Shown here: piece after piece, positions 25,482 to 29,781 of the stretch
How positions within the stretch are numbered: position 1 is the first letter of the stretch
How the letters are laid out: each line of letters opens with the position of its first letter
Assembly: GCF_900156785.1 (NCBI RefSeq)
Contig: NZ_FTOP01000019.1
Span: forward strand, 1 to 55,885
Length of the DNA: 55,885 nt
Direction: 5' to 3'
From: Belliella pelovolcani
GTDB lineage: Bacteria > Bacteroidota > Bacteroidia > Cytophagales > Cyclobacteriaceae
The notes under the pieces: generated by a model
Database searches by the model: none
What the model saw: the letters and a program-made list of their open reading frames with translations, nothing else
What the model was told of the DNA's origin: nothing
Program-made: the position numbers and the translations under genes

Positions 25482-26471
25482 ATGATCAAAAGGTTGCTTT
25501 TTATTCTTTTCTTACTCGCAGGGACGCTACAGTTGAGTCATGCGCAGGAAGAAATACAATTGGCTGACACTCTTGTCATCAATGGTGAGACCATCATCAT
25601 GTTAGGTGACTCGGTGATCATCATTAGACCAGAAAAACCCGTCTATTGGAAAAAAGGGGGGAACTTTAACCTTAGCATTCAGCAAGTGAGTCTTAGCAAT
25701 TGGTCAGCAGGCGGGGCAAGCAACATGGCGCTCAATACAGGCTTGAATCTCTTTGCCAATTTCAAAAAAGATGAAAAAATCTGGGACAGTAAACTAACTG
25801 TCAACTTTGGTTTCAATAGGCAAAGTGACCGGAGATTTGCCACGAGAAAAACCAACGACAACTTCCTCTTCATCAGCAAGTACGGTAGAGAACTTTCACC
25901 CAAGTGGTATTTGTCTACCCAAATAGAAGCGAGAACACAGCTACTAGGTGGCTATCGTTATTTTAGACCTTCAGGCGCGGAACAAGATGCAAGACAGCGA
26001 ATATCTGATCTATTAGCACCAGCCTATATCCAATCTTCTACTGGTCTCAATTATAAAAAAGAGTATAAAAACAATGACAAAGTCTCTATCATTGCTTCTC
26101 CATTTACTGGTCGATTTACAGTAGTTCTAGACGATTCCTTGAGTAGAGCGGGAGCTTTTGGGGTTTTGCCAGGAGAATCGATCAGAGCCGAAGCTGGTAT
26201 GTCAGTGAGCTCTTCTACAGATGTCCAAATCCTCGAAAACATACGCTGGCGAGCTGATCTCAACCTTTTCTCCAATTATGAAAGACTTGGAAACATGGTG
26301 GTCAACCTCAACTCTGTGATCAGTATGAAGGTCAACAAATACATCACAACAAGGATTGAAACTGTATTGATCTATGATGAGCGAGTTTTGATAACAAGGT
26401 CTGATGACACGCAAGGCCCAGCTATTCAACTTCAAAACCTGATAAACTTTGGGATTGGGATAGATTTTTAG
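25482..26471 (+). CDS. DUF3078 outer-membrane-type protein
   Basis: A 329-residue protein with a signal peptide (1-21, cleavage near HAQ) and a beta-strand-rich body with alternating aromatic residues, ending in Phe as outer-membrane barrels do. The VSLSNWSAGGASNMALN segment is the recognisable DUF3078 landmark. Its role is unknown; it is probably a small barrel. It follows the lytic transglycosylase by 28 bp and converges with dnaX, whose end is only 3 bp away. Confidence 0.8.
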   Translation: MIKRLLFILFLLAGTLQLSHAQEEIQLADTLVINGETIIMLGDSVIIIRPEKPVYWKKGGNFNLSIQQVSLSNWSAGGASNMALNTGLNLFANFKKDEKIWDSKLTVNFGFNRQSDRRFATRKTNDNFLFISKYGRELSPKWYLSTQIEARTQLLGGYRYFRPSGAEQDARQRISDLLAPAYIQSSTGLNYKKEYKNNDKVSIIASPFTGRFTVVLDDSLSRAGAFGVLPGESIRAEAGMSVSSSTDVQILENIRWRADLNLFSNYERLGNMVVNLNSVISMKVNKYITTRIETVLIYDERVLITRSDDTQGPAIQLQNLINFGIGIDF

Positions 26472-26474
26472 GAA

Positions 26475-27056
26475 TTAAAAATCAGTTTCTAGTCCAAACT
26501 TACGTTGTAGCTCTCTTAGTGGGGCGTGTTTCTCGAGTAGGTAATTTAACTTATCAGTGGACGTGTAGAGCCTTTTCCCTTCAGGCACAGCCTCTTCATG
26601 AATTTCAGAAAGAATGCTTACCGAATAATTATTCAGCTTCCTTCTTAACAATTGCTGCACTTCTCCACGGATTTTCCCAAAAATCTCCTCTTGAATTTCT
26701 CCATTAAGCAAGAAAGTAATTTGCTCTCCATCCAATCTAAAGGGCTGCTTAAAAACAGTCACTTCCAGATTTTTATGATTTGATTTAAACTCCTCTACCA
26801 TCCCCTCCAAGATAGTCTTGAGCTTAGCTTCATCAAAAGTCTCTGTAAGCTGATTGACCTCCTCTTGAACTTGGGTTTCTGCTACAGTCTGTTTTACTTC
26901 TACCGGTCTTGCGGCGACAATTTTCTTTGTCTCTTCTATAGACTTGGGAATAGCAATGGTCTTTTGGACGGGAGTCTTTTTGGGACCAAATGGATTGGCA
27001 TCCTTAAAAAGGCTTGGTGTCGCTTTTGAGTCAGAAGTTGATTGATTACTTAGGCT
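26475..27056 (-). CDS. dnaX: tau-specific C-terminal region of dnaX (-1 frame)
   Basis: From the last A of the A10 run, the -1 frame is open for 193 codons to TAA. It begins with a low-complexity linker (SLSNQSTSDSK..., Pro/Lys/Thr rich). It ends in a compact domain including QPFRLDGEQITFLLNG and KLNYLLEKHAPLRELQRKFG, which resembles Bacteroidota DnaX C-termini. There is no independent start of good quality; the first candidates are internal TTG/ATG codons near 26810. A fused product would have 574 residues, the normal length for full DnaX/tau. It should bind DnaE and DnaB if produced. Confidence 0.8.
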   Translation of the reverse strand, partial: SLSNQSTSDSKATPSLFKDANPFGPKKTPVQKTIAIPKSIEETKKIVAARPVEVKQTVAETQVQEEVNQLTETFDEAKLKTILEGMVEEFKSNHKNLEVTVFKQPFRLDGEQITFLLNGEIQEEIFGKIRGEVQQLLRRKLNNYSVSILSEIHEEAVPEGKRLYTSTDKLNYLLEKHAPLRELQRKFGLETDF

Positions 27057-27076
27057 TTTTTTTTTGACTCTTCCTG
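27050..27076 (-). other. putative dnaX frameshift site: A10 run with stop two codons later
   Basis: On the minus strand, ten A residues (27065-27056) are followed by GCC TAA. An AGGAAG sequence ends a few bases before the run and could act as a stimulatory anti-SD contact. No convincing downstream hairpin was seen. A net -1 shift joins the two dnaX frames exactly (1725 nt including stop, divisible by 3). Confidence 0.75.
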
Positions 27077-28198
27077 AGCCAAAGCAGCCAAGGAGATGGC
27101 TTGATTGACTTTTGCTAATTTCATCAAAGCTAACTCTACATGAAGCCTTTGATTTTTAGAAGCCTTGTAGTGAATATCACACTGATTACAGATATTCATC
27201 GCAGTCAATAAAAATGACAGAGAAGCGTCTTGAGACTGCTGCAAATAGCGTTCTTTGGCAGATTCTGAAACTTCAAGTAGTTCTATAGTCTCTGAATCCT
27301 TGCAAACCATCAGATCTCTGAGGTGTTCATTGAGTCCTACGATGAAGTTGTGTCCATCAAAACCCTTCTTGAGAATCTCGTCAAAAATCATCAATACTTT
27401 GGAAATGCTTTCTTCAAGGAGTGCATCGACTACTTTGAAATAGTAGTCATAATCCAAAATATGCAAATTGGAAATCGTCTCTTGATAGGTAAGCTTATTG
27501 CCAGCAGAATAAGTAACAATCAGATCAAATATAGAAAGAGCATCTCTCAAAGCTCCATCTGCTTTGGTAGCAATCAACCTGAGCGCTTCTTCTTCTGATT
27601 CTATTTTTTCCTCCCCTGCGATGTACTTCAAATGATCTGCGATGTCTTTGATTTGAATTCTATTGAAATCAAAAATCTGACAACGGGAAAGAATCGTAGG
27701 GATGATTTTATGCTTTTCTGTGGTAGCCAAAATAAAAATAGCATACTTCGGTGGCTCTTCAAGCGTCTTCAAAAATGCATTGAAGGCTTGATTGGAGAGC
27801 ATGTGAACCTCATCTATGATATAGACCTTGTATTGACCTTGCTGTGGTGCATAACGAACTTGCTCAACAAGATTCCTGATATCATCTACTGAGTTGTTGG
27901 ACGCAGCATCGAGTTCGTGAACATTGAAAGAAGCGTTGTTATTAAAAGCCTTGCAGGAATCACAAGTGTTGCAAGCTTCAAAATCAGCAGTTAGGTTTTC
28001 ACAATTGATGGTTTTGGCCAAGATACGAGCACAGGTAGTTTTACCCACTCCTCGGGGGCCACAAAAAAGGAAAGCTTGAGCCAGGTGATTATTCTTGATC
28101 GCATTTTTCAAAGTCGTGGTAATATGGCTTTGGCCAACCACGCTCTTGAAATTGGACGGTCTATATTTCCTGGCTGATACTACAAAATTTTCCATCAC
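27050..28198 (-). CDS. dnaX: DNA polymerase III subunit gamma (dnaX, zero-frame product)
   Basis: A 382-residue clamp-loader ATPase. It has Walker A GPRGVGKTTCARI, a zinc module with four Cys (NCENLT..CNTCDSC), DExx motif IDEVHMLS, sensor 1 LATTEKHK and the SRC arginine-finger motif, followed by the domain III helices. The reading frame ends TCA AAA AAA AAA GCC TAA, inside and just after an A10 run. The -1 frame stays open after that run and encodes the missing C-terminal region, so this ORF equals the short gamma-like form of a frameshifting dnaX. Read rightwards on the minus strand, nothing else interrupts the gene. Confidence 0.93.
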   Translation of the reverse strand: MMENFVVSARKYRPSNFKSVVGQSHITTTLKNAIKNNHLAQAFLFCGPRGVGKTTCARILAKTINCENLTADFEACNTCDSCKAFNNNASFNVHELDAASNNSVDDIRNLVEQVRYAPQQGQYKVYIIDEVHMLSNQAFNAFLKTLEEPPKYAIFILATTEKHKIIPTILSRCQIFDFNRIQIKDIADHLKYIAGEEKIESEEEALRLIATKADGALRDALSIFDLIVTYSAGNKLTYQETISNLHILDYDYYFKVVDALLEESISKVLMIFDEILKKGFDGHNFIVGLNEHLRDLMVCKDSETIELLEVSESAKERYLQQSQDASLSFLLTAMNICNQCDIHYKASKNQRLHVELALMKLAKVNQAISLAALAQEESKKKA

Positions 28199-28299: not shown

Positions 28300-29088
28300 T
28301 TAGAAGTTCAATGAAAGGCCTGTTCGAAAAGAATAGATCACATTGGTAATCGGTACTATTGGTCTATCCTCGTAGGAAATTTCAAAAGTATTTGTGATGG
28401 CAAACTTCTCCGTGAGTTTGGTATTCAAAATGGTCGAATTACTAATTCGGTGCCTAAAACCCGAAATACTTCGATCATAGCCTACTTGGTAATAATTGAC
28501 CATATTGAAATCTACATATTCATTGATTGTAGCACGGACACTGATGTAATTAGAACTTTTAAAAAAATTGACCTCTATGAATTGTTCCTCGTTGGGCACT
28601 TGCCACTTTTCAAATTCATACATACCTCCTATACCATAAAGGAAAGACAATTTCTTAGTTTTGATCAAGCTATGCCTGACAGAGCCTCCTACTATCCACC
28701 TTGGATCTAATCCACGAAAATTATCAAATGAATACTGGACGAAAGTCTCATAATTGACAGCTTCCTCTCTGAGAAAATTTGCTCGTGCATGAACCATCCC
28801 AAAATTCAAGAAATCAGAATCGTTGATTTTCAAATAATCAAACTTAGAAATAAACATATATCCATGCTTACCTGGATAGTATAGTGCATTGAGATCGACA
28901 TTGTAACCAAATAGATTTACTGGATCATCTGCTGCGGCACTTCTATTGTAGACATTTAATCCTGCATTTGCTTTGAAGAGAAAAACTTTGGAGGTGTCTT
29001 TTTGAAGTCTGGATCTTTCGATGTTCAAGATTTGACCTTCTGTATAGAATGGCAATAGCAATAAGAATAAAAAGAAATGTCTCTTCAA
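28300..29088 (-). CDS. DUF481-like exported beta-barrel protein
   Basis: A 262-residue protein if it starts at TTG 29086-29088 (MKRHFFLFLLLLPFYTEGQ). That start gives a clean signal peptide. The frame is open 45 codons further upstream, but that part is rich in Cys, His and Lys and looks non-coding. The mature part is beta-rich with aromatic periodicity and ends LSLNF, fitting an outer-membrane barrel of the DUF481 type. Function unknown. It lies upstream of dnaX by about 100 bp on the same strand. Confidence 0.75.
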   Translation of the reverse strand: MKRHFFLFLLLLPFYTEGQILNIERSRLQKDTSKVFLFKANAGLNVYNRSAAADDPVNLFGYNVDLNALYYPGKHGYMFISKFDYLKINDSDFLNFGMVHARANFLREEAVNYETFVQYSFDNFRGLDPRWIVGGSVRHSLIKTKKLSFLYGIGGMYEFEKWQVPNEEQFIEVNFFKSSNYISVRATINEYVDFNMVNYYQVGYDRSISGFRHRISNSTILNTKLTEKFAITNTFEISYEDRPIVPITNVIYSFRTGLSLNF

Positions 29089-29346
29089 AACGGTTTTGGT
29101 TTTTGATGAAATACAAAGTTTTTGAATTTTGCTTCGGAAAACAAATTTGAGGAGATTGAATGTGCGGTGGATAATGTACCAAGTACAATGACTGTTCGAA
29201 AACGTTTCAAATATATAGTCCAAAATCTTCCAATTTTTTAATTTTTCAATCCAAAGCCCAATTCACAAAAAAGTGATTTATCCTCATACCTTAAAACTTT
29301 TCAACTTTCCCAACCTTATAACTAGAAGCAGGAACTTTATTTCCCT

Positions 29347-29374: not shown

Positions 29375-29776
29375 GGGGCTGACCGGTTTTGACAGTAGGT
29401 GTAAGGATCGGGCTCGCATGTCAGGTGGAGTATGTACGTCTGTGAATAATTCATACAAACTATAATTGGCGAATCTAATTACGCCATGGCTGCCTAATCT
29501 ATCCCTTAGGGGACCTAGATAATGCTTAAAGGGTTGAGTTTCGATAGATACTCCCCGGCCACATCTCACCAACCGTTGCACTGTCCGGTTGGAATTGAGG
29601 TGTCGACTGACAGCGCTGCTCCTTGTGAGGCTACTAAGCAAGGCTAAGATTAGTGGATAAGCTGTTGTCCGGTGTGTCACCCAGCAAACAACAGTCGAAA
29701 AGCCAACAGGTGACTAAACATGTAGACGGTACGGTGTTTCCCTATCTGGACGCGAGTTCGAATCTCGCCAGCTCCA
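29375..29776 (+). ncRNA. ssrA: transfer-messenger RNA
   Basis: The 5' end GGGGCTGACCGGTTTTGACA pairs with the 3' acceptor AGCTCC (ending at discriminator A, 29776). The T-arm GAGTTCGAATCTC is near 29751-29765. The tag reading frame starts at the resume codon GGC 29468 and encodes GESNYAMAA followed by TAA (29495-29497). This resembles other Cytophagales tags. CCA is not encoded and must be added. The RNA rescues stalled ribosomes together with SmpB. The open frame on the opposite strand of this gene is spurious. Confidence 0.96.
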
Positions 29777-29781
29777 CTTAA

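Follow-up and report, generated by a model that had tools for sequence, protein, structure and literature searches.

The dnaX gene in the window, by which we mean the whole 55,885-nucleotide stretch of Belliella pelovolcani DNA analysed here, is divided between two overlapping reading frames that meet at a run of ten adenines, and this raises the question of whether one gene yields both a short (gamma) and a long (tau) replication protein and, if it does, which machine changes the frame. The gene as a whole occupies positions 26475-28198 on the minus strand. Its first frame (ORF1, 27050..28195, minus strand), which encodes the zero-frame product gamma, begins at an ATG at 28195 (381 aa) or at a GTG at 28198 (382 aa), matches the clamp-loader AAA+, lid and domain III families of Pfam, and is closed by a TAA at 27050-27052. 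The A10 run lies at 27056..27065 on the sense strand (minus; T10 on the plus strand), and the minus strand around it reads GAG TCA AAA AAA AAA GCC TAA, the same ending of the frame that a preliminary description of this DNA had given. Beyond the run the -1 frame continues through 193 sense codons (26475..27056, minus strand, with its TAA at 26475-26477), and the DnaX-like C-terminus proposed for it earlier was borne out: ORF1 covers positions 1-365 and ORF2 positions 447-613 of a single 614-position NCBIfam gamma/tau model (NF011531; E 4e-14 for ORF2). ORF2 matched no Pfam family at E 0.01. Joined by a -1 shift, the two parts give a tau of 574 residues, the length previously stated, if translation starts at the GTG and of 573 if it starts at the ATG; across the junction this tau is predicted to read K-K-K-S-L-S-N. 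The remaining +1 frame is closed by a TAA at 27046..27048, the expected end for A9 or A12 transcripts. The gene is flanked by genes for a DUF3078 protein (25482-26471, plus strand) and a DUF481 protein (28300-29223, minus strand), and a tmRNA gene with the tag GESNYAMAA adjoins it (29375-29777, plus strand).

Judged from its substitutions, ORF2 is under purifying selection, since dN was 0.029 and dS 0.658 (dN/dS ~0.04) against the nearest relative, G007. All seven congeners searched, among them a single-contig genome (G003), have an ORF1 of the same length, exactly A10 and tau in the -1 frame, and the run is therefore no sequencing error. One of these congeners (G001) shares an identical ORF1 with a named Belliella aquatica contig, which makes Belliella the probable genus. 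Exactly ten adenines were likewise present in 73 of the 74 split genes in a first set of 124 distinct dnaX genes, the sole exception coming from an Arcicella metagenome-assembled genome, and 38 of the 50 uninterrupted genes in that set carried A9 or longer at the same place. Stretches of at least ten A's number nine in the genome of the window (10 matches when overlaps are counted), and by a rough reading-frame check only the dnaX A10 and one A11 run lie far inside a long sense frame. This A11 run (L346, contig 24 near 54333) is located about four codons before the end of a candidate sense frame of ~500 codons, and an antisense frame of similar length is also present at that locus.

Across 339 distinct dnaX genes, a set that is not random, 79 having been picked up for their resemblance to the window and Pontibacter and further groups having been included deliberately, runs of A9-A11 were found in 265 (A10 in 233, A11 in 14 and A9 in 18), with shorter runs in the other 74. 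Tau lies in the -1 frame in 127 of the 233 A10 genes, in frame in 104 and in the +1 frame in two; because so many A10 genes have tau in frame, the run is evidently retained no matter which product is the default. In the remainder of the class, a more even sample, A9-A11 was present in 56 of 67 distinct genes (counted without L198, which belongs to the window's own family), and outside the class the run was present in 15 of 27 genes, from a sampling that leaned to short ORFs. An uninterrupted dnaX without the homopolymer, which the preliminary description regarded as the case against programming, does occur among the relatives (for example in Pontibacter); uninterrupted relatives are indeed common, and within the order and class the majority of them retain A9-A11. 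Elsewhere in the same ORFs (171,551 codons), A9, A10 and A12 were encountered only 7, 5 and 1 times, respectively. In genes with the pattern NNx AAA AAA AAA followed by another base, x was A in 129 of 133 as against 27.9 expected from dnaX codon usage, counts to which no probability is attached because the sequences are related; the position x is the third of its codon and falls outside the last heptamer, and the codons concerned encode eleven different residues. Of 105 columns around the run in the window's clade (n = 54), none was invariant except those of the ten A's, the G after them and the T that opens the gamma stop.

The default product has changed often. A FastTree phylogeny of 334 ORF1 proteins, truncated ahead of the run, requires at least 36 switches of default among A9-A11 genes and at least 24 changes in the presence of the run, although these counts cannot tell gain from loss because the tree is quick and unrooted. 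Conservation of this kind strongly supports the earlier proposal of a programmed slip with gamma as default and tau as the slipped product, and the run in dnaX is, on the comparative evidence, very probably a programmed slippage site through which one gene encodes a short and a long replication protein.

The frames that do not lead to tau are closed near the run. In the window, stops lie close to it in both the zero and the +1 frame, and the +1 frame closes within eight codons in 93.8% of 128 split genes. Among 97 uninterrupted A9-A11 genes, a -1 stop fell within two codons in 86.6% and a +1 stop within eight codons in 87.6%, compared with 20.9% and 41.6%, respectively, at control positions of the same genes; the corresponding values for 43 uninterrupted genes without a run of eight or more A's were 20.1% and 40.1%. 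Closure of the +1 frame would be expected if mRNAs with A9 or A12 exist and would not be needed for a -1 ribosomal shift. In Thermus, stops near the run in both other frames have been tied to mRNAs of off length (PMC1088944). The direction of the shift, on the other hand, is one-sided and speaks against polymerase slippage: of 142 shifted genes, 138 have tau in the -1 frame and four in the +1 frame, and a single direction is a sign of ribosomal frameshifting by the rule given in PMC3711429. Slippage in which insertions equal deletions does not fit these numbers, but polymerase slippage biased to insertions would also give a one-sided direction. In the four exceptions (L176, L204, L270 and L374), which have A10 or A11, a -1 ribosomal shift could not lead to tau. 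The run of L270 is one A off that of a congener, and L204 and L374 likewise each disagree with a congener in length, so that these three are either real toggles or sequencing errors.

Immediately 5' of the run, predicted stem-loops are more stable than elsewhere. For a stem ending at the run, the mean energy in 46 uninterrupted genes of the order was -4.6 kcal/mol, with -1.24 at control positions; 45 genes of the class gave -4.6 and -0.81, the effect falling off within a few bases of the run. Split genes of the order (n = 81) had their optimum, -3.65, 4 nt upstream of the run (control -0.94). Synonymous shuffling of 139 genes (<75% identity) gave -4.78 for the native stems and -3.02 for the shuffled ones (Wilcoxon p 1.6e-8), with no excess at control positions -75, -120 and -180 and a p of 0.014 at -45; when the window's clade was removed, p was 3.9e-9 (128 genes). 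In Hymenobacteraceae (19 of 23 listed genes, L021, L164, L165 and L286 being left out as members of other families), 75% of cells were paired compared with 65.9% after shuffling, a level reached by none of 500 shuffles, and the covariation score exceeded all 500. Outside the window's clade, an RNA stem-loop thus often sits directly against the 5' end of the run, to an extent that the encoded residues do not account for. The window itself has a possible stem-loop at 27072..27094 (minus strand; fold -8.6 kcal/mol) that ends 6 nt before the run and shows weak or no conservation: 59.2% of cells were paired versus 56.6% shuffled (18 of 500 shuffles reached this) and covariation was 0.147 versus 0.119 (27 of 500), the scored structure including one stray pair and the alignment 35 of the 54 clade members. 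For 42 thinned genes of this clade, p was 0.11 for stems within 2 nt of the run and 0.0045 for stems 3-7 nt away, and RNAalifold returned no 5' consensus beyond two pairs, so that signs of a stem in the clade of the window are weak.

Taken together, these features lead us to regard the dnaX A10 as probably a programmed transcriptional slippage site. RNA polymerase would slip in copying the ten template T's and so produce a mixture of A10, A11 and other mRNAs; the A10 message would give gamma, ending at the stop one codon after the run, the A11 message with its one extra A would open the 193-codon frame and give tau, and A9 and A12 messages would terminate a few codons further along, yielding a gamma-like protein. 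Magnesium chelatase cassettes in E. coli reporters shifted at 63% with 11 A's, 40% with nine and 10% with seven (PMC3711429), from which ten A's would be expected to fall near one-half, with gamma about equal to tau; in that event the choice of default product would be nearly neutral. We prefer polymerase to ribosome as the likely agent because of the exact length of the run, the frozen synonymous A, the stops that close the wrong frames and the stem on the 5' side. Apart from the shift direction, the weak stem in the window's clade, the presence of stems on short heptamers, an excess of Shine-Dalgarno-like sequences and slight downstream structure count against it.

The strongest competitor, which we consider unlikely, is programmed -1 ribosomal frameshifting on A_AAA_AAA within the run, resembling that of E. 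coli dnaX except that gamma would be made without the shift. That heptamer is present in the window (A_AAA_AAG is absent from the zero frame), and the -1 direction needed in 138 of the 142 shifted genes is the one it would provide; a heptamer, however, needs neither ten A's, nor a frozen third-position A, nor an early +1 stop. The AGGAAG noted earlier just upstream of the run is there, but it is not conserved in 35 aligned genes. Sequences resembling a Shine-Dalgarno with four matched bases occurred in 68 of 101 split A10/A11 genes of the order, against 48.3 expected from synonymous shuffling, and with five bases in 27 of them against 17.2, a modest excess in favour of the ribosome; uninterrupted genes of the order had none (31 of 70, 30.8 expected). 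Because AGGAAG is unconserved, the excess is modest or absent and the ribosomes of Bacteroidia are reported not to recognise Shine-Dalgarno sequences (PMC9976891), it is probably not a stimulator. Downstream of the run, the mean folding z over 60 nt was -0.47 in 195 thinned genes as compared with -0.04 to -0.20 at four control positions, 9.2% of the genes lying below -2 (2.6-8.2% at controls), and in 75 uninterrupted A10/A11 genes the mean z against synonymous shuffles was -0.12. With downstream z only slightly below controls, and so close to that of the shuffles, a general ribosomal stimulator is not evident from the sequences, though a few genes may have one; the 54 genes of the window's clade contain no invariant downstream element and no conserved RNA structure of the E. 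coli type.

Lineages without A10 lend the ribosome further support, as Pontibacter and some Spirosomataceae carry short heptamers with a stop directly after. All 25 Pontibacter-type genes (L068, L072, L076, L077, L080, L082, L083, L088, L090, L092, L103, L289, L290, L302-L308, L310 and L312-L315; 11 from named Pontibacter contigs) have A7, and theirs is a candidate ribosomal frameshift site. Downstream of it, codons +3, +5 and +11 are identical in 25 of 25 genes, +8 and +9 in 24 and +13 in 23, and 5 nt after the run a candidate H-type pseudoknot can be drawn (stems GGTAGC/GCTACC and GGCACC/GGTGCC; 94.3% of cells paired). No covariation was found in it because the stems hardly vary, and folding energy, computed for nested folds only, gave it no support (synonymous z +0.47); the pseudoknot is supported by the frozen synonymous sites, and we therefore offer it as a proposal. 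Among the Spirosomataceae and others, several genes show A_AAA_AAG or G_GGA_AAG immediately followed by a stop. No run of A9 or longer occurs in L326, L339, L340, L352, L370-L373, L375, L376, L273, L285, L294 and L110, which have short heptamers near the same place, mostly with a stop close after in the zero or -1 frame. The Pontibacter and short-heptamer sites look, in sequence, like replacements by ribosomal frameshifting. GGAGG upstream of the short heptamers was considered as a Shine-Dalgarno stimulator and rejected, codon shuffling explaining it by the encoded residues (30 of 34 versus 29.3 expected with four bases; 20 versus 15.3 with five). A clean division into A10 with a 5' stem and short heptamer without one also failed: stems of -4.7 kcal/mol or lower were present in 13 of the 14 short-heptamer genes other than Pontibacter (L161 and L167 left out by hand), and within the order the stems of A10/A11 genes were not lower in energy than those of short-heptamer genes (p 0.29). 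A stem alone is therefore no proof of polymerase slippage on A10. Separately, three genes from genomes of 0.5-0.7 Mb (L299, L300 and L301) encode a DnaX of only 354-367 aa, lack the run and any recognised tau part, and apparently make gamma only.

It is improbable, though less far-fetched than an error, that both levels operate, with the polymerase slipping and the ribosome sliding on one and the same run and each contributing to a degree that varies by lineage. Poly(A) runs are slippery for both machines (PMC3711429), and A10, A7 and A6 cassettes coexist within one order; the sequences, however, would look alike whether the run were read in this mixed way or by one machine. An assembly error with a miscounted run, or a broken gene that has lost tau, can be dismissed as scarcely credible despite the proneness of homopolymers to error and a few A10/A11 differences between congeners (L269/L270, L368/L374) that could be errors, because independent genomes carry the same A10 in the same frames, nearly all split genes of the first set have exactly that length, and ORF2 is constrained.

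Returning to polymerase slippage, we advance tentatively, at somewhat under even confidence, a broader scheme in which much of the Bacteroidota would have a terminator-like dnaX cassette, with a stem-loop in the nascent RNA abutting an A run whose ten bases would correspond to the 9-10 bp RNA-DNA hybrid of RNA polymerase (PMC5009743). Gamma and tau would be made in near-equal amounts, the default would be almost neutral and would have switched dozens of times, and some lineages would have exchanged the cassette for ribosomal frameshifting, Pontibacter with a pseudoknot.

A two-ORF dnaX with A10 is of a kind already known since 2013, when Antonov et al. (PMC3711429) reported 17 dnaX genes in two ORFs, drawn from 12 genera; nine of them had A10, and transcriptional slippage was suggested as the mechanism. 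Those genes share with the window a stop right after the poly-A run, tau in the -1 frame and ten A's; that set, as described, consists of split genes, whereas here the run was traced across the phylum in uninterrupted genes as well, and the 5' stem and the lineages that lost the run are added. Thermus thermophilus dnaX is alike in its A run, its two products and the stops near the run in both other frames, and differs in having A9 with tau in frame, where the window has A10 with gamma in frame; its mechanism is given as transcriptional slippage (PMC1088944, PMC5009743). E. coli dnaX also makes gamma and tau from one gene at an A-rich site with a stop directly after, but does so by -1 ribosomal frameshifting on A_AAA_AAG, with Shine-Dalgarno-like and hairpin stimulators and tau unshifted (PMC3711429, PMC5009743). 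In a Roseiflexus insertion sequence, a stem-loop of the nascent RNA directly 5' of the motif drives polymerase slippage (PMC5009743), a placement shared by many relatives of the window gene; there the motif is T5C5, one base is deleted and the host is a mobile element, as opposed to A10, a presumed insertion and a housekeeping gene here, with a weak stem in the clade. Atkins et al. (2016; PMC5009743) speak of the reversed arrangement in "many fewer bacteria". Among titles and abstract openings, a scope that mostly stopped short of subscription papers and supplements, we found no published treatment of a phylum-wide run, of default switching or of a 5' stem in dnaX; what thus appears unreported in the literature searched is that the run persists with either default, that relatives have a 5' stem and that Pontibacter has A7 with a frozen downstream sequence.

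Should the run work as we infer, deliberate misreading would be the only route by which many Bacteroidota obtain one of their replicase subunits, and tau may go unannotated in genes that have gamma as their default. In that case the phylum would constitute a natural experiment with dozens of replicates, in which the same run is combined with either default product and which also includes lineages where the slippage signal has been exchanged for another. The purpose of gamma would become a testable question, as would the ease with which polymerase slippage and ribosomal frameshifting replace each other.
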